This document shows positions 6,032-18,926 of a DNA stretch of 35,310 nt, in pieces. The translations under genes and the position numbers were made by a program. Positions within the stretch are counted from its first letter, which is position 1. Every line of letters starts with the position of its first letter. Where the stretch lies: assembly GCA_020724505.1 (NCBI GenBank), contig DYGV01000001.1, forward strand, positions 30,107-65,416, in the 5' to 3' direction. The notes under the pieces were generated by a model. The model saw only the letters and a program-made list of their open reading frames with translations, did not search any database and was not told where the DNA came from. The DNA comes from Anaerolinea thermophila. Its GTDB lineage: Bacteria; Chloroflexota; Anaerolineae; Anaerolineales; UBA4823.

Positions 6032-7252
6032 CTAACCCAGGTATTCTCGCAGTTTACGGCGGATCGCCGGGTGACGCAACCGACTGAGGGCTTGCGCCTC
6101 GATCTGCCGCACCCGCTCGCGAGTAACGCCCATCTTGCGCCCCACCTCTTCCAGGGTGTACGCCTGACCATCCAGCAATCCATAGCGCAATTGTAAGATG
6201 CGCACTTCACGCGGCGGCAGGCCATTGAGCACAGTCTCCAGATGCTCGCGTAGCAAGTTGTATGTGGCAGTCTCATCTGGCGCGGGCACCTCTTCATCTT
6301 GGATAAAATCGCCCAACACCGAATCTTCTTCGTCGTCTGTTGGGGTTTCCAGCGAAAGTGGGCGGCGCGCCACCTGGATCATGTTTTCTACTTTCTGTGG
6401 CGTAACATCCAGGGCTTCCGCCAGTTCCTCCACAGATGGGTCGCGGCCCAGGCGCTGAGTCAGCTGATGTTGGACGCGCAACAGTTTGTTGATCTGATCG
6501 CCCATATGCACCGGAACGCGGATCGTGCGCCCTTGATCGGCAATCGCTCGCGTCACCGCCTGGCGAATCCACCAGGTGGCGTAAGTGCTGAATTTATGCC
6601 CGCGGCGATAATCAAACTTTTTCGCCGCGCGGATCAAGCCAATGTTCCCCTCTTGAATTAAATCCAAAAAGGGTACGCCGCGCCCCATGTATTTCTTCGC
6701 CACGCTGATCACCAGACGGGAGTTGGCGGTGATCAAATGCTCACGAGCAGCCCAACCATCTTCGATCAGGGCCTGTAGCTCCTGGCGACGGCGTGGGCTG
6801 ACATTACCCTTCGCCAATTCCTCGCGCGCCAGCCTGCCACGCTCGATGCGCTGCGCTAGCTCTACTTCCTCTTCCGCCGTTAACAGCGGAACTCGGCCCA
6901 CTTCTTTCAAATACAGACCGATCGTGTCATCGGTGTCTATGTTCGCCAGATAGTTGTCATCAACGCCAAACTCGCGACGAACATCCTCTTCGTTTTCCTC
7001 TTCCTCGATCAGCTCCTCTTCGCTGGGGCCGCCTACGGCGGCTTCATCCAGGTAGGGGATGCCGGCGCTCAGCAGAGCTGCGAACGCCTCCTCAAGCTGG
7101 TCCACGTCTTGCTCAGCGTCTGGGAAAAAGCCCAGAATATCATCAATGGTCACATAAGACTTTTGCCGCCCGAGTTCGATCAGGCGAGCAATGGCAGAGT
7201 GCTCATCGGGTTCCTCAATCCCGGATATTAACTCGTTATCAATCATATTCAT
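6032..7252 (-). CDS. rpoD: RNA polymerase principal sigma factor (sigma-70, RpoD/SigA)
   Basis: This 406-residue protein has the full layout of a group 1 sigma factor. Region 1.1 lies at about 15-70, followed by an acidic linker (77-92). Region 1.2 starts near 108 ([17 protein letters not shown]). Region 2 at about 172-245 contains [20 protein letters not shown] for -10 recognition and melting. Region 3 spans about 246-325. Region 4 at about 335-400 has the helix-turn-helix [20 protein letters not shown] for -35 contact. It directs housekeeping transcription, in line with the TTGACA/TATAAT promoters seen here. The Met at 7252 has an AGGT five bases upstream; Met3 is an alternative. A TTGATT-17-TATTCT promoter lies about 40 bp upstream, so it is probably transcribed separately from the ABC operon before it. 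Confidence 0.97.
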
Positions 7253-7364: not shown

Positions 7365-7976
7365 TCATGGCGTCGCCACAGGCGTCGCCGTCACTTGAGC
7401 GCCGCCATCTCCGGAGGGCGTCTCAACCGCCGCTGTAGGAGTGGGCCTTAATGGCAAGTTGTCTATCAGACCCAGAACCGAATCTAGGCTGAATTTGCTA
7501 ACGATTGAGAGGCGACGATCGCTGCCTTGAACATAATAACCACTACCCGTCGGCGTCTCTTTGCCGATGCTGGCATAGATTTGCTTGCCATTCTTCAGCG
7601 TGATCAGAATACGGTAAGCAGGCGAGGTCAGTCCCATATCCTCCAAAGCTGGTGCTTCCTCCAGCGCGCTCAGAATTGTCATTGAGGCCAACTGACCCAA
7701 AGTGCTATCCAATGAAGCGCTATCTGCATCCAATCCTTCAGGCCAGGTAATCGTCCACTCTCCTTGATCGTTGCGCTTCAGCTCTACAACGCGGTCGCCA
7801 ACGCGCTCCAGGCGCACCGCGGCAATTTGATCGTCAATGGCAAACAGATTCTGCGACGCGCTTTCTTCGGTGGGGGCAGCCTCATCCTCCCGCTGCTGAT
7901 TCCGCTGCCAGATCAGCGCTGCTGTTAAAATGACGATAAAGATCGCCAAAACGATCCAGGTAGTTTTCCGAATCAT
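7365..7976 (-). CDS. DUF4340 domain membrane-anchored protein
   Basis: This 203-residue protein has one N-terminal membrane helix (about 7-24), no lipobox cysteine and an extracytoplasmic domain. The domain has the beta-rich DUF4340 look: VRLERVGDRVVELKRNDQGEW, a helical stretch, then a strand pair reading ILITLKNGKQIYASIGKETPTGSGYYV. The C-terminal 30 residues are Pro/Thr/Ala-rich and probably disordered. It begins 6 bp after the GldG-like gene. DUF4340 genes commonly follow GldA/F/G-type ABC genes, so it is probably an accessory subunit of that exporter-like complex. Its biochemical role is not known. Confidence 0.8.
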   Translation of the reverse strand: MIRKTTWIVLAIFIVILTAALIWQRNQQREDEAAPTEESASQNLFAIDDQIAAVRLERVGDRVVELKRNDQGEWTITWPEGLDADSASLDSTLGQLASMTILSALEEAPALEDMGLTSPAYRILITLKNGKQIYASIGKETPTGSGYYVQGSDRRLSIVSKFSLDSVLGLIDNLPLRPTPTAAVETPSGDGGAQVTATPVATP

Positions 7977-7982
7977 GGGCGC

Positions 7983-9536
7983 TTATCCTCTTCGACGACG
8001 CTGAATAAAAGTCCAAACTCCGCCAACCAGAGCCAACCCAGGCAATACAATTACCGTGCCCAGAAAGATCAGGTTCAAAGTAGTGGTTTGCGGCGGTAAC
8101 ATCATGCGCGGGGTGGCGTTCTTCGGCGTCAGGCTGATCAGTTGCTCTTGCCCAACTGCCCAGTCAATGGCATTGACCAATAAATCGCCGTTTGCATACG
8201 CCGGGAAATTCACATCCACGGCAAAATCGGCGTCGCCAAAGGCAACCACGCGCGATTTCGTTTCAAAGTTTTCGCCTGCCACTGCTAGCGAGATTGGGCC
8301 CGAGGTGTCCTGTCCATCATCGAATTGAATTTGCTGCTGATTATCCTCCAGACCTTTGAGATTGGTCTCTGCCCACGATTGCGGGGCAGTCAACACCAGG
8401 TTCACCAGGCTCACCCCGGCGCCGGCGTTCGCTGCGGCAGTCGCAGAACGAGCAGTTGGGAATTGCGTCGTCGTGCGTTGAATGGGCTGTGTGACTGGAT
8501 GTTGCCCATATTGCGCCGCGAAGGGAGCGAATGGCTGACCAGAGGTCAGATCAACGACGATATTCTCGCCGTATTCGATACCCCAATCTTGCAGCAAGTA
8601 ATCCGCCAACGGGTCGGCGGTTTCGCCGTAATTGGTAAGCGGACGCGGTTCTTCCATCACGACCAGGCCGCGGCCCTTGGAGAGAAAATCCTTTAGCTGT
8701 GAAATTTCCTCTTCCGATAGCACATTACGCGGGCCAACAATAACGATGGCCTTTGCATCTTCTGGAATTTGATGTGTTGCCAACAGGTTGAGTGTCTCAA
8801 CCTTATAGTTTTTGCTCTCCAACGTGCGTTTGACCAATGACATGGATTGATCGCCGCCGACATCTGGAATGTATTCTCCATGACCGGTTAGAAAGTAGAT
8901 GCTCTGGCTTTCCGGGTTCATCAAACGCACTAACCCGCCGGCCAGTTCTTGCTCGCTGGCGTACCGCACAGACTGTTGGCGATCGCCCATAACAAGCACA
9001 ATTGTGCCATCTTGAGTAATCTTTGCCTGCTCAGCAGCAACCGGGTTCTTCTCAGGATCAATGAACTCGTAATCAAACCGACCGTTGCTGTTGAGCTTAA
9101 ACTGTTCCAACAGGCGTTCTGCGCTCTCTTTAGAAGAACGCTGAGAGTAGAATGCTCTGGCGGTGACCTTCTCCGGGAGACTCTGGAGTGTGTTCAGGCT
9201 TTCCGGCGCCAGAGTGTATTGCTTATCTTCCGTCAAATCCCAGCGCTTTGTATTGTGATAAACCAGATAGTTAACCACCACCAGAATACCAACAAACGCC
9301 AGGGTAAGCACCAGGGCATTGCTGCCATACCGCGCCTGCCTGCCCACCAGAAAACGGCGCACGCGCTCGGGATCCAGCAAAGCAAATAACGCCAGGCCGA
9401 TGACAAATAAACCCAGGCTAATTTGGATCGCCAGATTAAATTGGCGCTGAACCACATAGAGGCCGGCGGCAACCAGGATCGCCGCGCCTGATAGATACAA
9501 GCCCAGCGGGGCAAAACGACGCCATTCAGCTTTCAT
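7983..9536 (-). CDS. GldG-like ABC transporter auxiliary protein
   Basis: This 517-residue protein has two N-terminal membrane helices (about 12-60), a third near 75-95 and a C-terminal anchor helix (about 483-507). The large external part between them contains WDLTEDKQYTLAPESLNTLQ, the signature of the ABC_transp_aux/GldG family, and LTGHGEYIPDVGG. In gliding Bacteroidetes GldG works with GldA and GldF; here it is more likely a general envelope ABC complex. The start is set at the ATG at 9536, because the permease's TAA overlaps it (TAATG) and GGAGGTG lies at the right distance. A GTG nine bases upstream is less likely. The third of four genes in an operon. Confidence 0.85.
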   Translation of the reverse strand: MKAEWRRFAPLGLYLSGAAILVAAGLYVVQRQFNLAIQISLGLFVIGLALFALLDPERVRRFLVGRQARYGSNALVLTLAFVGILVVVNYLVYHNTKRWDLTEDKQYTLAPESLNTLQSLPEKVTARAFYSQRSSKESAERLLEQFKLNSNGRFDYEFIDPEKNPVAAEQAKITQDGTIVLVMGDRQQSVRYASEQELAGGLVRLMNPESQSIYFLTGHGEYIPDVGGDQSMSLVKRTLESKNYKVETLNLLATHQIPEDAKAIVIVGPRNVLSEEEISQLKDFLSKGRGLVVMEEPRPLTNYGETADPLADYLLQDWGIEYGENIVVDLTSGQPFAPFAAQYGQHPVTQPIQRTTTQFPTARSATAAANAGAGVSLVNLVLTAPQSWAETNLKGLEDNQQQIQFDDGQDTSGPISLAVAGENFETKSRVVAFGDADFAVDVNFPAYANGDLLVNAIDWAVGQEQLISLTPKNATPRMMLPPQTTTLNLIFLGTVIVLPGLALVGGVWTFIQRRRRG

Positions 9537-10291
9537 TATCCCCACCTCCGTACTTCGATGGACATGGCGCTCAGGAAAAGAGACAGGGCTGTAACGCTCA
9601 AATAATAGACGACATCCCGCAAATCCACAACGCCGCGCAAGAGATTTTCGTAAAAGTGACCGCTATAATCCAGATACCGCGCCAGCTCCGTCGCTCCGCC
9701 CGTCTGGCCGGCCACCTGACCAATGACGCCAATGATCCACCACAGAAAGATCACCACGCCCATTGTCGCAGCGAAGGCTGCAATCTGATTGCTGAACAGC
9801 GAGGAGACAAAAACACCCACCGCCACAGTCGCGGCAGATAGAAGAATTAACCCCAGATAACCGGTCAGTAGCGGTCCTTGATCCACACCCGGAGAGATCA
9901 ACTGGTTCAAGATCATGGGGTAAATTAGACTGACCGCCAGGTAAGTAAGTAGAAGCATAAATGCTCCCAGCCACTTCCCAACCACCAGTTCCCAATCTCG
10001 CACGGGAGCAGTCATCAACAGCTCAATCGTCCCCAAACGACGTTCTTCCGCCAACAAACGGGTGGTCAACGCCGGCGTCAAAAGCACCAGCATCACTGCC
10101 ATCGGCTGCATGGTAATATCCACGCCTGGGACATAGCCTTGCTGCATCCCCATGGCCGAGGAGGCGATTTGAACCGAATACGAGAAGAAAAAGCCCAGTA
10201 CAAGAAATAGAAAGAAGGCGAGCATATACGCCACCGGGCTGGAGAAATAAAGCCTGTATTCACGTTTCGCGATCGTCCATACGTTGATCAT
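9536..10291 (-). CDS. ABC-2 family permease (GldF-like)
   Basis: This 251-residue integral membrane protein has about six hydrophobic helices. It opens with a short cytoplasmic N-terminus, WTIAKREYRLYFSSPVAYMLAFFLF, typical of ABC-2 permeases. A cytoplasmic loop near 75-105 has TPALTTRLLAEERRLGTIELLMTA-type sequence, where E-E-R and G-T-I-E-L-L are the hallmark of this family and mark the contact to the ATPase. It would form the membrane pore with the ATPase encoded 34 bp upstream. It is coupled by TAATG overlap to the GldG-like gene downstream. The substrate is unknown. Confidence 0.9.
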   Translation of the reverse strand: MINVWTIAKREYRLYFSSPVAYMLAFFLFLVLGFFFSYSVQIASSAMGMQQGYVPGVDITMQPMAVMLVLLTPALTTRLLAEERRLGTIELLMTAPVRDWELVVGKWLGAFMLLLTYLAVSLIYPMILNQLISPGVDQGPLLTGYLGLILLSAATVAVGVFVSSLFSNQIAAFAATMGVVIFLWWIIGVIGQVAGQTGGATELARYLDYSGHFYENLLRGVVDLRDVVYYLSVTALSLFLSAMSIEVRRWG

Positions 10292-10325
10292 AAGCGGCTT
10301 TTTCCTTTTACGTTCTGATCGTTGT

Positions 10326-11318
10326 TCACGATTTCAAATTCAGGTCCTTCATATCGGACATTGACTCATCCAACATTTCTTCCTCCGCAGGTTGTGGAGG
10401 CGTTGGTTCATCACGCGTCAATTGCAGGAAGATCTCTTCCAAGCTGACTCCATAAGGGCGCATCTCCAGCAAATCATAGCCGGCCTGGATGATCGCTCGC
10501 GCCACCTCTGCTCGCGGATCCATCCCCGGCACGGTTTCAAATTCCAATCGCCCATCCTCTTTCTCTGTAAGGCGCGCCACTCCCGGCACGGAGGCTACGA
10601 CCGAAGCCAGCCCATCGCCATCGCCGCCCACCTGTACAGAAACACGCCGCGAACCCGTTAAGCGGTCTTGCAGGCGCTCTGGGGTGTCTTCCGCAACAAT
10701 TCGTCCGCGATTGATAATCATGACTCGATTACATACCTGCTGCGCCTCGGACAAAATGTGCGTGGAGAGTAATATCGTATGATCCTTGCCCAATTCTTTA
10801 ATCAAATTTCGCACTTCGATGATTTGGGCGGGGTCCAAACCAATAGTCGGCTCATCCAGGATCAACACCTCCGGGCTATGGACTAAAGCCTGCGCCAGCC
10901 CGACACGTTGGCGCATCCCCTTCGAGAGGTTGGCGATATAGCTCTCCGCTCGATCCAGCAGACCAAGCCGCTCCAACAACTCATCTACTCGATCTTCGGC
11001 ATTTGCCACCTGTCGCAGATCGGCCATGAACTTGAGATAATCAAAAACCGTCATATCTGGATAGAGCGGCACTGTCTCCGGCATGTAACCAACCCGCCGC
11101 CGTACCTCCAGGCTCTGGTCAACTACATCGAACCCAGCCACCTGCGCGGTGCCAGAAGTGGGTGGCATATAACCGGTGAGGATGCGCATCGTCGTGGTCT
11201 TGCCAGCGCCATTGGGCCCCAAGAAGCCGAGGATCTCGCCTTTCTGGGCGTCGAACGTCAAATCTTCGATGGCGCGGCGCAGACCGTAATCTTTGGTCAG
11301 TCCTTCTACACGAATCAT
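10326..11318 (-). CDS. ABC transporter ATP-binding protein (GldA/CcmA-type)
   Basis: This 330-residue protein is an ABC ATPase. The Walker A motif GPNGAGKTT lies near 34-42, the Q-loop near 80-90, the signature LSKGMRQRVGLAQAL at about 134-148 and Walker B VLILDEPTIGLDP at about 155-167, followed by the switch histidine (LLSTHIL). A C-terminal domain of about 100 residues (SVQVGGDGDG onward) is the DUF4162-like regulatory extension common in ABC-2 exporters, ending in an acidic tail. It is the first gene of the four-gene operon. The ATG at 11318 has GGAG seven bases upstream. A small ORF (11315-11413) ends in an ATGA overlap with this start, so coupling to a leader peptide is possible. Confidence 0.93.
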   Translation of the reverse strand: MIRVEGLTKDYGLRRAIEDLTFDAQKGEILGFLGPNGAGKTTTMRILTGYMPPTSGTAQVAGFDVVDQSLEVRRRVGYMPETVPLYPDMTVFDYLKFMADLRQVANAEDRVDELLERLGLLDRAESYIANLSKGMRQRVGLAQALVHSPEVLILDEPTIGLDPAQIIEVRNLIKELGKDHTILLSTHILSEAQQVCNRVMIINRGRIVAEDTPERLQDRLTGSRRVSVQVGGDGDGLASVVASVPGVARLTEKEDGRLEFETVPGMDPRAEVARAIIQAGYDLLEMRPYGVSLEEIFLQLTRDEPTPPQPAEEEMLDESMSDMKDLNLKS

Positions 11319-11750: not shown

Positions 11751-14700
11751 ATGGCCGGGATCCCTTTACGTGAGTATATTCGAGAGATCGAAAAGCAGGT
11801 GGACGGTAAACGTTACGAAGAGGCGATAGCGCACTGCCATCATATTCTCATTTCCTATCCAAAACACGTTGACGTTTACCGATTACTAGGCAAAGCTTTC
11901 CTGGAAAGCCAGCGTTATGGCGATGCAGCAGATATTTTCCAGCGCGTCCTTTCGGCAATTCCAGACGATTTCGTCTCTCATGCTGGTATGAGCATCATCC
12001 GCGAGGATGAAGGCAACATGGATGAGGCAATCTGGCACATGGAGCGCGCTTTTGATGTTCAGCCTTCGAACAGCGCCATTCAAGAAGAACTGCGCCGCAT
12101 GTACGAACGACGCGACAACGTCGAACCGCCCAAAATTCGATTGAGCCGCAGCGCGCTGGCGCGCATGTATTACCGCGGCGAGCTATATCCTCAGGCGATC
12201 GCCGAGACGCGCGCCGCCCTGGCTGAAAACCCGGATCGTTTGGACCTGCAGGCGTTGCTGGCTGAAATCTACTCGAAAGCCGGACAGCGCGCGGAGGCCG
12301 TCGAGGTTGCAAACCAAATCCTGCGCCGATTGCCGTATTGTCTGGTTGCTAATCGCGTGCTCTTTGAGGCACTTTCTGCCAGCGATCAAACATCCGAAGC
12401 TGCAACCTACCATCAGCGCCTGTGCCAGCTCAACCCCTATTATTCATTCGTCGCTGATGCGTCAACCGCAGTAGAAAATGTACCTGATTCCGCGGTGCGT
12501 CTGGATAAGCTGGAATGGAAAGTTGGTCAGGGCCCGGCCGGCAAAGCCGGTCAGCCCATTTGGGCTGCCACGTTGGGGGTGGATTTGGGCGACGCCGGAG
12601 GAGCCAAAGAAGAGCCGTTGCCAGAATGGTTGTCATCGTCCTCGGATGTCTCACAAAGCGGCTTCGAGCCAGGGGAAGTTACCTCCATACCAGCGTTTTC
12701 ATTGGAAGAAAGCGCTGCAATCACTGGTGAACCAGACCTGGATCTCACTGCTCCCACAGAAGAAGATCAATTGCCGGATTGGATGAAAGATTTGGGATGG
12801 ACGCCCGCATCCGGCGTCAGCCACGAGGCTGAAGCCGAACTCGCTTTCACCGACGAAGTCGAAGCGCCGCCCACAGAAGGCGAACTTGCGGAAGCCGAAC
12901 TCCCCGAATGGTTCAAAGAAATTGCGCCGCAAGCAATTGAAACGCCTCTTACTGAGGAACAACAAGCCCCATGGGTCGAGGAAAGCGCAGCAGAGGATGA
13001 GGATCTGGCGCCCTGGCTGGATAAGTTGTTTGCCGGCGGCACTGCGCCTGAAGAAGAGACGCCAATTGCAGAATTAGAGGAAGCCCCCTTTGAAACGCCG
13101 GCAGTGGATAATGTCTCTGTAACATTGGATGAAACGGTTTCTCCCGTCGAAGCGCCAGAAATCGCCGCTGCAGAAGCGCCCGAAGAGCCAATTGCTGCGG
13201 TTGCACCCTCCGTCGAACCCGCCGAAGAAGAACTACCCGAATGGCTATTTGTTGGAGATGAAACTACCGCTCAAGCTCAAGCAGAGCCAGCCGCGCCAGC
13301 AGAAGAAGAACTCCCCTCTTGGCTAGAGGAAGAGCTCCTCTCAGAAGAAACTTCCGAAACCGCACAACAAACGGCGGAAGAAGAAGAATTGCCTTCCTGG
13401 CTATTCAAGAGCGAGGTGGAGGAAGAAACGACTGCGCAAGCCGAGCAAACTCTCACAGAACTTCCCGAATGGCTGCTCGAAGAAGAGGAGGCGCCAGCCG
13501 AAATCCCCGCCGCGGAGGAACAAATCGAATGGCGCGCCGAGGGCCAACCTCTACTAGATGAGGAAACGGCTGAGATGGAAACCAACCTTGAGGCGGTTGA
13601 GTTGCCCGACTGGCTGAAAGCCGAGCTTGGCCCCGAAGAGAAGGTCGAAGCGGAAGCGCCTACCGCAGAGATTCCAGACTGGTTGTTAGAAAGCAGCCAA
13701 GAAGAAGCCATGGCTGAAACTGAAGAAACCATAGAAGAAGCAGGCGGATGGTTGAGCGAAATCGAGACGGCTGCGCAAGATGTAACGAGGCAGAGCGAAG
13801 AAACTGAGCGCGCCGCTGAAATCCCAACATGGTTAGTGGAAGAAGAACCCTCAACTCAAGAAGCTCCGGCGACAGAAATCCCCGACTGGCTCAAAGCTGT
13901 GGAGACCAGCGCCTCGACCGCCGACCTGTCATCCGAATGGTTTGGCGAACAACCGGCGCCCGAAACCGAAGAAACCGAGTTGGAGCAGGCCGAGCTGCCC
14001 GAATGGCTGCTGGAAATGCAAGCTGCTGACGCCGTCCTCGACCAGCAGGCGCTGACCGAGGCGGGTGAAGAAGGCAAACCCGAAGCTGAGCCTGAAACGG
14101 AGCAGCAACCGCTTGCAGAAACGCCCTCCGTTGCGCAGATCGGCGAGACTCAACCCACACCAGCAACGCCGGAGATCGCTCCAGAAGAAGCTGGCATTGT
14201 AGACAAAGAGATGGAAGAAGCACTCGCCTGGCTCAATTTAATGCTTTCGCCGCAAACCCCTCCACCTGCTGCGCCGCCAGAAGAAGCCAAACCCGTCTCA
14301 TCGGTGGAACAATCGCCTGCTGCAGGAATATCGGATGACGAGGCCGCCTTTGCATGGCTGGAAAGCCTGGCAGTGCGACAAGGTGCTCAAGAGGCGTTGC
14401 TGCTTTCACCGGAGGAGCGCCAGGAGACGCCGCCTGAATGGGTGTTGCAAGACCTAGAGCGAGGCGAATCAGAAGCACCGACCGCTGCGTTAGAAGAACC
14501 GCTTGCCTTAGAGCCAGAAAAAGCAACGCAGGAAGAAGAGCGAGAAACCGTTGAAGCTGAAACGGCGCAACCTGCCGTTACGCTGAGCGATGAAGACGCC
14601 GCCTTTGCTTGGCTGGAGAGCCTGGCCGTGCGGCAGGGCGCCCAGGAAGCCTTGTTGCTTTCGCCAGAAGAGCGCCTGGAAACTCCTCCGGACTGGGTGG

Positions 14701-15521
14701 TGGAACAGCAAACACCGCCCCCCGAAACCGCTCCAGAGACGATCGAGAAGATCGCGGAAGAAATTGCTCTACCTACAGAGCAAATTGCTGAAGGCGAAGC
14801 CACAGCGGAAGTTGAAACTGTGATGGAAACCACAACGCCTGAGACGGCAGCGCCAATGGGCGAAACGCCGATAGCAGAAGCGCCCAGCGTCTCGCCTGTC
14901 GAGGAAGTATTGCCTGAACTGCCCGATTGGTTAGTCGAGCCAGGAGTTGAAACGCGCGAAGAACAGCTCGAATGGACGCCGCCCCCAATCACACGGCGAA
15001 AATATGATCTCAACCTGGCGACGCTGGTTGAACTGGAACGTTTGCCAGGAGTGGGTTTCATTATGGCTCAGCAGATCATCGAATATCGGGAGCAACATGG
15101 CCCCTTCCAGCAAGTTGATGACCTGCTTAAAGTGCCCAATTTCACCCCTTATACGCTGGAAGGCATCCGCGATTATTTATTCGTCGCCGCTGCCCCTCAA
15201 CCGTTGGTCGTCTCCGCGGAGCCAAAAGCGCCGGATACCGGACCGGTTATCCTGGCGGAAGGGGCTGGCGTTCCAGATGAAATCCTGAAGGCGCGTGAGC
15301 TCCTCGGGCGCAACGAATTAGAGCTGGCGCTGGCGGCTTATTCTCGCTTGATCGAGCGCGGCGATCATCTTAACTGGGTGATTGATGATCTGGGTCAGGC
15401 CGCCGCTCAGTTCCCATCCCAGATCAGTATCTTGCAAAATCTGGGCGATGCTTATTTGCGAGCGAATCAACTGGCAGAGGCGTTGCGCGCCTATACCCAG
15501 GCGGAGAAACTACTGGCTTAA
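11751..15521 (+). CDS. Giant TPR protein with acidic Trp-motif linker and helix-hairpin-helix domain
   Basis: This 1256-residue soluble protein has no signal peptide. Residues 1-230 are tetratricopeptide repeats (for example YEEAIAHCHHILISYPKHVDVYRLLG). Residues about 285-1065 form a very acidic, Glu/Ala/Pro-rich, probably disordered stretch with 13 copies of [LI]-P-[EDST]-W-[LFM] (typically ELPEWL or EIPDWL) plus further W-L variants. A 37-residue block beginning D-D-E-A-A-F-A-W-L occurs twice in it. Residues about 1085-1145 (YDLNLATLVELERLPGVGFIM onward) are a ComEA-like helix-hairpin-helix, usually a DNA-binding or protein-binding module. Residues about 1178-1256 are TPR-like again. The array of short Trp motifs looks like docking sites for many copies of one partner. 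It has its own promoter and precedes ndk by 92 bp. The function is unknown; a scaffold role is inference. Confidence 0.85.
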   Translation: MAGIPLREYIREIEKQVDGKRYEEAIAHCHHILISYPKHVDVYRLLGKAFLESQRYGDAADIFQRVLSAIPDDFVSHAGMSIIREDEGNMDEAIWHMERAFDVQPSNSAIQEELRRMYERRDNVEPPKIRLSRSALARMYYRGELYPQAIAETRAALAENPDRLDLQALLAEIYSKAGQRAEAVEVANQILRRLPYCLVANRVLFEALSASDQTSEAATYHQRLCQLNPYYSFVADASTAVENVPDSAVRLDKLEWKVGQGPAGKAGQPIWAATLGVDLGDAGGAKEEPLPEWLSSSSDVSQSGFEPGEVTSIPAFSLEESAAITGEPDLDLTAPTEEDQLPDWMKDLGWTPASGVSHEAEAELAFTDEVEAPPTEGELAEAELPEWFKEIAPQAIETPLTEEQQAPWVEESAAEDEDLAPWLDKLFAGGTAPEEETPIAELEEAPFETPAVDNVSVTLDETVSPVEAPEIAAAEAPEEPIAAVAPSVEPAEEELPEWLFVGDETTAQAQAEPAAPAEEELPSWLEEELLSEETSETAQQTAEEEELPSWLFKSEVEEETTAQAEQTLTELPEWLLEEEEAPAEIPAAEEQIEWRAEGQPLLDEETAEMETNLEAVELPDWLKAELGPEEKVEAEAPTAEIPDWLLESSQEEAMAETEETIEEAGGWLSEIETAAQDVTRQSEETERAAEIPTWLVEEEPSTQEAPATEIPDWLKAVETSASTADLSSEWFGEQPAPETEETELEQAELPEWLLEMQAADAVLDQQALTEAGEEGKPEAEPETEQQPLAETPSVAQIGETQPTPATPEIAPEEAGIVDKEMEEALAWLNLMLSPQTPPPAAPPEEAKPVSSVEQSPAAGISDDEAAFAWLESLAVRQGAQEALLLSPEERQETPPEWVLQDLERGESEAPTAALEEPLALEPEKATQEEERETVEAETAQPAVTLSDEDAAFAWLESLAVRQGAQEALLLSPEERLETPPDWVVEQQTPPPETAPETIEKIAEEIALPTEQIAEGEATAEVETVMETTTPETAAPMGETPIAEAPSVSPVEEVLPELPDWLVEPGVETREEQLEWTPPPITRRKYDLNLATLVELERLPGVGFIMAQQIIEYREQHGPFQQVDDLLKVPNFTPYTLEGIRDYLFVAAAPQPLVVSAEPKAPDTGPVILAEGAGVPDEILKARELLGRNELELALAAYSRLIERGDHLNWVIDDLGQAAAQFPSQISILQNLGDAYLRANQLAEALRAYTQAEKLLA
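14334..14444 (+). repeat. 37-codon repeat, copy 1, within the TPR/W-motif gene
   Basis: The copy encodes DDEAAFAWLESLAVRQGAQE, then ALLLSPEERQETPPEWV. It differs from copy 2 at only 4 of 37 residues but at about 18 synonymous sites, so the protein sequence is conserved while the DNA has drifted. Confidence 0.9.
14589..14699 (+). repeat. 37-codon repeat, copy 2, within the TPR/W-motif gene
   Basis: The copy encodes DEDAAFAWLESLAVRQGAQE, then ALLLSPEERLETPPDWV. It lies 255 bp downstream of copy 1, in frame with it. Confidence 0.9.
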
Positions 15522-15589: not shown

Positions 15590-15613
15590 TGAAAATCAAT
15601 CGTGGAGGACTTT

Positions 15614-16063
15614 GTGGAAAAAACGCTTGTTTTAGTAAAACCGGATGGGGTGCAACGCGGTTTGATCGGAGAAGTGATTTCTCGCCTGGAGCGCCGCGGA
15701 CTGCGCCTGGTCGCAGCCAAGTTTATGCAAGTCAGTCGAGAGCTGGCCGAAACCCATTATGCCATTCACAAAGGCAAAGGGTTCTATGAGGGGCTGATCA
15801 AATACATTACCTCTGCCCCGGTGATGGCGATGGTATGGGAAGGACCCAATGCGGTGGCGGCGGTGCGCCAAACGATGGGCAGCACTCGGCCTACCGATGC
15901 CGCACCCGGTACGCTGCGCCATGATTATGCTCTGGAGGTGGGGCGCAATTTAACCCATGCCTCCGACTCGCCCGAAAATGGCGATAAAGAAGTTGCCTTA
16001 TGGTTTCAACCACATGAACTGGTGCAATGGAACCGCGAGGTAGATCGCTGGATCTTCGAGTAA
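15614..16063 (+). CDS. ndk: Nucleoside diphosphate kinase
   Basis: This 149-residue enzyme transfers the gamma phosphate of ATP to nucleoside diphosphates through a phospho-histidine. The N-terminus EKTLVLVKPDGVQRGLIGEV is typical, and the C-terminal half carries MGSTRPTDAAPGTLRHDYAL (GxTxPxxAxPGTIR). The active site usually reads N-x-x-H-A-S-D, and NLTHASDS is present near 118. The start is taken as the GTG at 15614, because a GGAGG Shine-Dalgarno (15604-15608) lies five bases upstream. A GTG at 15602 would put that Shine-Dalgarno inside the gene. The length then equals the family norm. It is followed by a good intrinsic terminator at 16110-16150. Confidence 0.96.
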   Translation: MEKTLVLVKPDGVQRGLIGEVISRLERRGLRLVAAKFMQVSRELAETHYAIHKGKGFYEGLIKYITSAPVMAMVWEGPNAVAAVRQTMGSTRPTDAAPGTLRHDYALEVGRNLTHASDSPENGDKEVALWFQPHELVQWNREVDRWIFE

Positions 16064-16234: not shown

Positions 16235-16360
16235 GTGAAACTGCTCGCCTTCCTGCAAGTCATCTGGGCTCGCCTGAGTTATCTGATTGACAAACTGCAG
16301 AATGATTGGCTGAATAGATACAAAGAGGTTTTTAGCGGTGACACATCCAAACGAAATTGA
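16235..16360 (+). CDS. Possible 41-residue small protein
   Basis: A GTG at 16235 opens a 41-codon frame that starts about 16 bases after the predicted transcription start and ends at 16360, overlapping the start of the radical SAM gene. The peptide begins MKLLAFLQVIWARLSYLIDK and continues with an amphipathic, Trp/Lys/Asp-containing helix. Its codon choice (CTG, GCC, ATC, CGC) matches neighbouring genes. The Shine-Dalgarno is poor. It could be a small membrane-associated or regulatory peptide coupled to the downstream gene, or a chance frame in a 119-base leader. Confidence 0.35.
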   Translation: MKLLAFLQVIWARLSYLIDKLQNDWLNRYKEVFSGDTSKRN

Positions 16361-18275
16361 AAAATTTTTAGAACGCGTCTTGCTCAAGGTGCAAAAACCG
16401 GCGCGCTATACTGGCGGCGAGATCAACCAGGTTGTCAAGAAATGGGGCGCTGTTCGCACCCACGTTGCCCTGGTCTTTCCAGACTTGTATGACCTGGGAA
16501 TGTCTAACCTGGGGTTAGCTATACTGTATGATCTGTTGAATCAACGTTCAGATGTATTGGCTGAGCGCGCCTTTGCGCCCTGGTCAGACATGGAAGCTGC
16601 GCTGCGCCAGGCGAAACTTCCTCTATATTCGTTGGAATCCAAACACCCCCTGGCAGATTTCGACATTGTGGGGTTTTCGCTGCCTTATGAAACACTCTAC
16701 ACCAACACACTGAATATTCTGGAATTGGCAGGCATTCCTCTGTTTTCCGCTGAGCGCGAGGAGCGACATCCGTTAGTAATCGCCGGCGGTCATGCGGCGT
16801 TCAACCCTGAACCCATGCATGCTTTCATAGACGCGTTTGTGATCGGCGAAGGTGAAGATGTAATCCAGGAAATCGTGGATGCACATCAATCCTGGAAAGA
16901 CAGCGGCGCAAGCCGCCAGGAGCTGCTGATTTCGCTCTCCCAGATTTGGGGCGTTTACGTGCCATCGTTATACGAAGCCCATTATGAGGAAGACGGGGTT
17001 TTCTCTCACATCGAAAAAAAGCTCAGCGAAGCGCCCCTGCCTGTGGTCAAACGCATCGTTGCCAAGCTACCACCGCCAACCACACGTTTGATTGTGCCGT
17101 ACATTGACACAGTTCACAACCGCATTCCCATCGAAATTATGCGCGGCTGTACGCGCGGCTGCCGTTTCTGCCAAGCAGGAATGATCATGCGGCCGGTTCG
17201 CGAGCGCCCGGTAGAGCAGATCGTTCAAGCCATCGAAGATGGATTGAGAAACACCGGGTTTGAAGAGGTGGGATTGCTTTCGCTATCATCCTCGGACTAC
17301 ACGCATATTCTAGACTTGGTTACCGCGGTCAGCCAGCGCTTCGCGGGGCGAAACTTAGCCATCTCTTTGCCCTCTTTGCGCATCGAATCCTTCTCGGTGG
17401 ATTTGATGGATGCGCTCAAGGATTCACGCCGCAGCGGTTTCACCCTTGCGCCGGAAGCGGCAACAGAACGGATGCGCGAAATTATCAACAAACCGGTGAG
17501 CAGCGAAAAGTTGCTGGAGACAGCCCGGGCGATTTACGCTCGCGGCTGGCACAACATCAAGCTCTATTTCATGATCGGCCATCCATCGGAGACAATCCAG
17601 GATGTGCAAGTTATTGTTGATTTATGCAAAGCGGTCCTGGCTGAAGGTCGTAAAATCATTGGCCGCAGAGCGCAGGTCACCGCCGGCGTCAGCACTTTTA
17701 TCCCCAAACCTCACACCCCTTTCCAATGGGCGGCTTGCGACACAATGGAACAGATCCGCGCCAAACAAGCCTTGCTCAAAAAGAGTTTACGCGGCGATGG
17801 CCTCAAGTTAAATTGGAATTCCCCGGAAGATACCATGCTAGAAGCCTGGCTGTCGCGCGGCGACCGACGAATGGCTGAGGTGATTTATCAAGCCTGGAAG
17901 CGCGGGGCGCGCTTCGATGCCTGGAAAGACCATTTTCGTTACGACCTTTGGCTGGAGGCTTTTTCAGCGGTTGGGTTAGATCCAGCCTTTTATACCCACC
18001 GCGAACGCCCCTTAGACGAACCTTTCCCATGGGACCACATCAGCGCCACCGTGCGTAAGAAATTCCTCGCCGAGGATTATCTGTGGAGTATGCAGGGAAA
18101 GACGCGCATAGATTGCCGACAACGCTGTTTCGCTTGTGGTATCCTGCCCACTTTCGCGGATTTACGTCGCGCCAACCCTGGCGATGTCTGGCAATGCCCG
18201 GAGGTGAAAAGCAAGCGCATCCCAGTCGGCGAAATCGCAGTTGCCTCCGCCGATTCGATCCCAGTCAGCGGTTGA
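16338..18275 (+). CDS. TIGR03960-type B12-binding radical SAM protein
   Basis: This 645-residue protein has an N-terminal cobalamin-binding-like fold (about 30-190, with VFPDLYDLGMSNLGLAILYD and GGHAAFNPEP). A radical SAM domain has its Fe-S cluster motif CTRGCRFC at cysteines 271, 275 and 278. A C-terminal Cys-rich tail reads CRQRCFACG. This matches the TIGR03960 family, whose reaction is unknown and which is usually encoded beside a TIGR03936/DUF2344 partner, as here (21 bp downstream). The classic cobalamin-ligand histidine motif is not obvious. The start is GTG at 16338 with AGAGG upstream. The two proteins probably act as one enzyme, since they are fused in some bacteria; RNA modification is often suggested from gene context but is unproven. 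Confidence 0.92.
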   Translation: MTHPNEIEKFLERVLLKVQKPARYTGGEINQVVKKWGAVRTHVALVFPDLYDLGMSNLGLAILYDLLNQRSDVLAERAFAPWSDMEAALRQAKLPLYSLESKHPLADFDIVGFSLPYETLYTNTLNILELAGIPLFSAEREERHPLVIAGGHAAFNPEPMHAFIDAFVIGEGEDVIQEIVDAHQSWKDSGASRQELLISLSQIWGVYVPSLYEAHYEEDGVFSHIEKKLSEAPLPVVKRIVAKLPPPTTRLIVPYIDTVHNRIPIEIMRGCTRGCRFCQAGMIMRPVRERPVEQIVQAIEDGLRNTGFEEVGLLSLSSSDYTHILDLVTAVSQRFAGRNLAISLPSLRIESFSVDLMDALKDSRRSGFTLAPEAATERMREIINKPVSSEKLLETARAIYARGWHNIKLYFMIGHPSETIQDVQVIVDLCKAVLAEGRKIIGRRAQVTAGVSTFIPKPHTPFQWAACDTMEQIRAKQALLKKSLRGDGLKLNWNSPEDTMLEAWLSRGDRRMAEVIYQAWKRGARFDAWKDHFRYDLWLEAFSAVGLDPAFYTHRERPLDEPFPWDHISATVRKKFLAEDYLWSMQGKTRIDCRQRCFACGILPTFADLRRANPGDVWQCPEVKSKRIPVGEIAVASADSIPVSG

Positions 18276-18296
18276 AGCCGAGGCGATCCATCCGTT

Positions 18297-18926
18297 ATGC
18301 AACGCCTGCGTATCATATTTGCCAAGACATCTGCCATGCGCTTCACCGGGCATTTGGACTTGCACCGCGCCTGGGAGCGCGCTTTTCGCCGCGCCGAATT
18401 GCCCCTGGCTTATTCCCAGGGTTATAACCCACACCCGCGCCTCAATCTGGCTGCGGCGTTGCCTTTGGGGTTTACCAGTCAGGCGGAAATCATGGATGCC
18501 TGGCTGGAGCACACACTTCCGGTCGCCCAGGTGTGGGCTGCGTTGGAGAGCGCTCTGCCTCCTGGTATAAGCCTGTGCCAGATCGAAGAAGCAGCGCTAA
18601 ATCTGCCAGCGCTGCAAACCCAGCTCGAGGCGGCGGAATACTTGGTTACACTCTTGGATGAGCTGCCAGAGATGGCGACTCGCCTGGAAACGCTTATGAA
18701 TAGCGAACATCTGCCTCGTCGGCGACGGGGCAAAGATTATGACCTGCGCCCTTTGATCCTCAAACTGCACTCTCTACCTCCTGAGGCAGACGGATTGCAG
18801 CGGTTATTCATGCGCCTGGTTACGAAAGAAGGCGCTGCCGGACGACCAGATGAGGTCGTTGAAGCGTTGGGCGGCGCGGCAGACGCAGCGCGTGTTCACC
18901 GTCTGAGATTGATCCTATCCAGTTAG
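18297..18926 (+). CDS. TIGR03936/DUF2344 radical SAM-associated protein
   Basis: This 209-residue protein begins with QRLRIIFAKTSAMRFTGHLDLHRAWERAFRRAELPLAYSQGYNPHPR-type sequence (residues 2-48). The phrases F-T-G-H-L-D and S-x-G-x-N-P-H-P-R are the family hallmark. It follows the TIGR03960 radical SAM gene by 21 bp, the standard arrangement, and probably forms its partner subunit, perhaps for substrate binding. The ATG at 18297 lacks a strong Shine-Dalgarno. It ends 29 bp before the PrsW-like gene, so three genes may share one transcript. Confidence 0.9.
   Translation: MQRLRIIFAKTSAMRFTGHLDLHRAWERAFRRAELPLAYSQGYNPHPRLNLAAALPLGFTSQAEIMDAWLEHTLPVAQVWAALESALPPGISLCQIEEAALNLPALQTQLEAAEYLVTLLDELPEMATRLETLMNSEHLPRRRRGKDYDLRPLILKLHSLPPEADGLQRLFMRLVTKEGAAGRPDEVVEALGGAADAARVHRLRLILSS

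Follow-up and report, generated by a model that had tools for sequence, protein, structure and literature searches.

In the tryptophan-acidic ligands of kinesin light chain (KLC), the Trp is followed by an acidic residue. Pex5 combines a tetratricopeptide repeat (TPR) domain with a long disordered region, in which many short Trp motifs dock repeated small domains of Pex14 and Pex13 (PMC8086558). Trp motifs are also received by the TPR domain of KLC (PMC6224480), and eukaryotic acidic activation domains are acidic disordered stretches exposing Trp and Leu clusters (PMC10550315). Here we describe an open reading frame (ORF) from a 35,310-nucleotide stretch of Anaerolinea thermophila contig DYGV01000001.1 (hereafter the window). 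The encoded protein, to which the libraries searched assign no function, starts straight with a TPR domain, continues into a long acidic linker with an array of short Trp motifs and ends with a helix-hairpin-helix (HhH) domain and a second TPR. We consider it fairly probable, from sequence comparisons and structure prediction, that the protein is a cytoplasmic multivalent short-linear-motif scaffold and that its motifs all dock on one and the same folded partner.

The pattern [LI]P[EDST]W[LFM] matches the linker exactly 13 times between 12618 and 14933, as the first-pass annotation of the window had correctly counted and placed, whereas composition-preserving shuffles of the linker gave a mean of 0.0135 motifs and a maximum of 1. 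The annotation had also called the conservation of the motif regular; however, the intervals range irregularly from 19 to 308 residues, and regular spacing was rejected. Other linker Trp occur as APW, SEW and GGW variants. Residues 261-1076 (816 residues) contain 26.6% D/E, 2.9% K/R and 26 Trp, with a net charge of -193. In an AlphaFold2 (AF2) prediction of residues 1-420 with two orthologues, a TPR solenoid is confidently modelled as far as about residue 230 (predicted local distance difference test, pLDDT, mostly 72-91); a less certain strand lies near residue 250, and pLDDT is 24-40 for residues 261-420, which supports the proposed disorder of the linker. Several copies of a conserved motif lie in this predicted disordered region, as in multivalent short-linear-motif proteins. 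The presence of TPR arms at both ends was confirmed by domain search: TPR_19 scores 63.9 bits at the N terminus against a Pfam cut-off of 25, with the same fold in the AF2 model, and the C-terminal AF2 model is confident for the C-terminal TPR alone.

Comparison with Pex5 showed a similar combination: beside a TPR domain, short Trp motifs are strewn in number over a long disordered region. The closest solved folds to the N-terminal TPR model are generic TPR superhelices, including OGT and Pex5 chains. However, the core of the motif is PDWL(K/R)xL instead of WxxxF/Y, which occurs at 0 of the 27 Trp of the window linker and at 26 of 794 overall, and the protein is bacterial, has TPR at both ends and gave no evidence of a transport role. 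By analogy, the logic of the scaffold appears Pex5-like, but the protein is not a Pex5 member. KLC ligands likewise place Trp in an acidic disordered context with a TPR as possible receptor (PMC6224480). However, the residue after a linker Trp is L/M/F/I/V at 654 of 794 positions; it is D/E at none in the window linker and at 28 of 794 overall. Unlike the acidic activation domains, the protein is bacterial and repeats one precise motif with Pro at -2, and no evidence of transcription activation was found. The HhH domain is ComEA-like (HHH_3), as had been noted, and is indeed present in the window protein, but the protein differs from ComEA in its 1256 residues and N-terminal TPR; the NCBIfam comE model scores 51.5 bits, below its cut-off of 152.35. 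HHH_3 is shared with only 10 of the 37 orthologues, and the domain was therefore rejected as a defining element.

The protein is present in 52 of the 61 genomes searched (its own included) and in 32 of the 33 genomes of >=90% completeness and <=5% contamination. Of two public records with the protein, one comes from an Anaerolineales bacterium and the other from a Chloroflexi bacterium; the order in which the protein is near-universal is most likely Anaerolineales. No second paralogue with TPR and Trp motifs was found in the window's own genome. The N-terminal TPR shares about 40-73% identity with the orthologues. The linkers of the window protein and all 37 orthologues always bear the motif (consensus [DE][DE][LIV]-P-[DE]-W-[LM]-[KR]-x-[LIA]), with 288 matches together against 0.57 in shuffles, and each protein exceeds its own shuffle maximum. 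The Trp-centred profile reads E/D, E/D, L/I, P, D/E, W, L/M, K/R, E, L/A. Four congeneric orthologues agree at each of the 15 linker Trp columns but at only 142 of 571 linker columns in total (about 25%; hypergeometric p about 5e-10), making Trp the most conserved residue of the linker. Judged from this alignment, the linker Trp is under strong purifying selection. The comparison of the window with another orthologue of the same genus (L045) is unreliable, since the L045 reading frame seems to shift in the linker, which makes its motif count too low.

Behind the N-terminal TPR, the series QPxWAASLG, LPDWL, IPDWM(R/K)(E/D)(L/A)GW and (G/A)EIPDWLKE(I/L)(S/A)P is found again in most orthologues, whatever their family, and the three or four leading motifs hold their positions. 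This recurrence suggests that the first motifs are individually placed, whereas the later array consists of interchangeable copies. A second, 39-residue module with the consensus [DE]DAAFAWLESLAxxQGAxEExLLxxPEERxETPPDWV is present in two copies in the window linker and also in 26 of the 37 orthologues; AF2 predicts helices in it with low confidence.

A search of the window's own genome with a degenerate DNA pattern that encodes the motif returned the known ORF and one other site with two matches (contig C29). Thus, as the first-pass annotation had proposed to look for, another protein with the same Trp motif exists: the product of the C29 site is a zinc-ribbon protein that shares the acidic LPDWL linker and ends in a membrane-anchored domain, the membrane segments being recognised by eye. 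Among seven motif clusters from six further genomes, six have this zinc-ribbon/membrane architecture, and one (L094) is the 3' part of a TPR protein. By our own count, 19 of 20 motif clusters among the matches listed fall in one of the two families; a motif pair in an unrelated large protein (G022, contig C245) was set aside as a chance match. The zinc-ribbon family is non-homologous to the TPR family and carries the motif without TPR, yet the two families have virtually indistinguishable motif profiles. The motif therefore recurs in unrelated proteins of one cell, as docking motifs for a shared partner predict, and the TPR protein and the membrane protein probably recruit such a partner. The zinc-ribbon gene lies in a five-gene cluster in the order DUF6754, membrane protein, zinc-ribbon/Trp protein, membrane protein and MutL-like PF13941, and this cluster is kept across the phylum (L087:5544-11788, L093-L099, L180-L194). 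The zinc-ribbon/Trp gene of the window's own genome (L087:6911-9352, contig C29) is split by a stop codon in frame near 7499-7501, where relatives read through; this stop may reflect either an error in sequencing or a true interruption.

Relatives of the N-terminal TPR were found in 114 of 301 Chloroflexota genomes. The usual plan of 20 distant relatives, read fully or partly, is TPR, acidic linker and TPR, and the arrayed motif varies by lineage: LPDWLxxL in this order, EEPDWMKQI in L132 and PEMTPFSLTDLGLSAEEIA (PFSLxDLGL type) in L130, L131, L133, L134 and L138. A query with the PFSL array clearly matched the TPR protein only, so that a second protein with this array was rejected for that distant lineage. 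The homologous scaffold of L131 (4266-9500) contains about 20 near-identical 34-residue units (AEPELKPFSLEELGLSPEEIAQLEAAQQQAQPAD). In two genome-reduced relatives (G331 and G349), a protein of 179-239 residues kept between sigA and ndk has one PDWL or PEWL motif and no N-terminal TPR, and its C-terminal part resembles the C-terminal TPR by eye, which suggests that the motif and the C-terminal part are the irreducible core. Two other genomes (G217 and G248) have neither a detectable copy of the protein nor ndk.

In the proposed mechanism, each motif, capped by Pro-Asp, would fold into an amphipathic helix of one to two turns that places Trp and Leu into the hydrophobic groove of a folded partner common to all motifs. 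Thanks to the acidic flanks, the aromatic residues would stay soluble and exposed, and the array would raise local concentration and confer avidity. Fixed roles may belong to the three or four leading motifs, and the remainder may serve as interchangeable stickers, while the TPR ends could bind other clients or one another. Through its copies of the motif, the zinc-ribbon membrane protein would bring this partner to the membrane. Disorder of the linker, selection on Trp and the second array-bearing protein all speak for the docking motifs that the first-pass annotation had envisaged. Several points weigh against them. The annotation held that docking motifs should be conserved in number and spacing; neither is, with 2 to about 22 copies per orthologue (by looser patterns), whereas the Trp and the positions of the leading motifs are conserved. 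The seven near-identical tandem units of L055 are plain duplication. In a distant lineage (G215), the TPR protein is almost without the motif and the membrane family has 18, indicating that the two arrays are not obligatorily linked. The AF2 model leaves motifs 1-3 undocked on the N-terminal TPR, although this is weak evidence with only 3 aligned sequences. No partner or pocket for the motif was found in this analysis, and all binding is inferred.

The partner could also be the protein's own TPR domain, with the motifs binding its concave groove in cis or in trans to give autoinhibition or a self-associating network. KLC TPRs bind tryptophan-acidic motifs on their concave surface (PMC6224480), and the strongly conserved N-terminal TPR has polar or basic positions (R7, H28, R65, H96, R121 and R133) that could complement an acidic Trp peptide. 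However, intramolecular docking was not seen by AF2, with the shallow alignment noted above, linker Trp followed by D/E as in the KLC motif are scarce, and both the reduced relatives and the zinc-ribbon family retain the motif without the N-terminal TPR; docking on the own TPR is thus unlikely. A membrane role, in which Trp-Leu helices enter the membrane surface, is consistent with the membrane anchor of the second family, with the plausibility of the motif as a Trp-bearing amphipathic helix and with the binding of some PEX5 WxxxF/Y motifs to bicelles (PMC8086558). The dense acidic flanks should, however, repel anionic membranes, and the Pro-Asp fixed just ahead of Trp points to a specific pocket instead of lipid binding, making such a role highly improbable. 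Tandem duplications in L055 and L131 and the varying copy number would also fit a low-complexity spacer without specific function, through which PDWL units spread by slippage. The chance of this is slim, since the flanks between motifs are mostly non-repetitive, linker Trp columns stay invariant while 75% of linker columns change, and the motif is found in two unrelated families.

A transcription-linked scaffold, whose acidic Trp/Leu arrays would dock RNA polymerase, sigma or an associated factor like eukaryotic acidic activation domains, would fit the domain content of some distant members. A sigma-70 region 1.1 segment is embedded in four scaffolds of 1500-2100 residues (L130, L131, L133 and L134). 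Two of the four scored above the Pfam cut-off when tested alone and all four did in the genome search, and the other region 1.1 matches in those genomes are all in sigma-factor-sized ORFs of 388-598 residues. A sigA gene is in the upstream flank of 10 of 37 orthologous loci, and it is directly upstream in L044, L050, L143, L202 and L203; the downstream ndk relates to nucleoside triphosphate supply, and some members have an HhH domain. Activation domains of eukaryotes can be predicted from clustered acidic and hydrophobic residues (PMC10550315). Jointly, sigA, region 1.1, HhH and ndk suggest a transcription-linked role, each piece being partial. However, region 1.1 is present in only 4 of the 20 distant members and in none of the orthologues, most loci have no sigA in the flank read, and the second motif family is a membrane protein with no transcription neighbours in the cluster read. 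We therefore regard this role as quite unlikely. A broader version, a Chloroflexota-wide hub linked to transcription or nucleotides, is very unlikely to hold: TPR scaffolds encoded beside ndk, and at some loci beside sigA, would use lineage-specific PDWLxxL or PFSLxDLGL arrays of acidic aromatic motifs to gather RNA polymerase, sigma or NDK in many copies. Such scaffolds would be the bacterial equivalent of acidic activation domains, and a membrane-anchored competitor would bear the same motif.

In the open-access literature, no description was found of the family, the motif or the exchange of motifs on a TPR-linker-TPR frame. Multivalent linear-motif scaffolds as such are known, whereas the motif, the two families sharing it and the lineage exchange of motif type appear undescribed. 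If the scaffold with a shared partner is correct, one Trp array shared between a soluble scaffold and a membrane protein would make an exceptionally clear case of bacterial motif-based multivalency, and the motif peptide (EELPDWLKELEE) would offer a direct handle toward the partner.

Table 1. Features of the candidate scaffold gene and its neighbours (nucleotide positions in the window)
Feature	Position	Strand	Remarks
Whole ORF, TPR / Trp-motif linker / HhH / TPR protein	11751..15521	+	1256 aa
N-terminal TPR domain, residues 1-256	11751..12518	+	TPR_19 etc. and AF2; most conserved part of the protein
Acidic disordered linker, residues 260-1080	12528..14990	+	Composition and AF2 pLDDT
Motif 1, LPEWL	12618..12632	+	Retained here by orthologues, about 20 aa past QPxWAASLG
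Motif 2, LPDWM	12771..12785	+	Orthologues: IPDWMRELGW
Motif 3, LPEWF	12900..12914	+	Orthologues: EIPDWLKEISP
Motif 4, LPEWL	13233..13247	+	Pattern match
Motif 5, LPSWL	13311..13325	+	Pattern match
Motif 6, LPSWL	13389..13403	+	Pattern match
Motif 7, LPEWL	13461..13475	+	Pattern match
Motif 8, LPDWL	13602..13616	+	Pattern match
Motif 9, IPDWL	13671..13685	+	Pattern match
Motif 10, IPTWL	13821..13835	+	Pattern match
Motif 11, IPDWL	13878..13892	+	Pattern match
Motif 12, LPEWL	13995..14009	+	Pattern match
Motif 13, LPDWL	14919..14933	+	Pattern match
39-aa second module, copy 1 (AAFAWLESLA...PPEWV), residues 860-898	14328..14444	+	
39-aa second module, copy 2, residues 945-983	14583..14699	+	
Helix-hairpin-helix HHH_3, residues 1086-1143	15006..15179	+	Optional domain; Pfam E 3.5e-17
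C-terminal TPR	15276..15518	+	Conserved phylum-wide; domain search; AF2 pLDDT 67-86
ndk, conserved downstream neighbour	15602..16063	+	PF00334
sigA-type sigma factor with region 1.1	6032..7252	-	Near the ORF in part of orthologous loci, directly upstream in some

In 31 of 37 orthologous loci (31 of the 33 testable), the next gene downstream is ndk. Of the six loci without adjoining ndk, four stop at the contig end and two come from one family. Among the 20 distant relatives, ndk is also downstream in 14. The retention of the protein in nearly all genomes of a large and poorly cultured order, its homologues in the phylum and this near-fixed neighbour make a basic role likely. Beyond ndk, a B12-binding-type radical SAM protein is followed by DUF2344 (window 16338-18926), and this pair is found downstream of ndk in 14-17 of 37 loci. 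On the minus strand, divergent from the candidate scaffold gene, lies an ABC transporter set (7365-11318; ATPase, permease, ABC_transp_aux and DUF4340), whose domain content is like that of gliding-type ABC transporter components.

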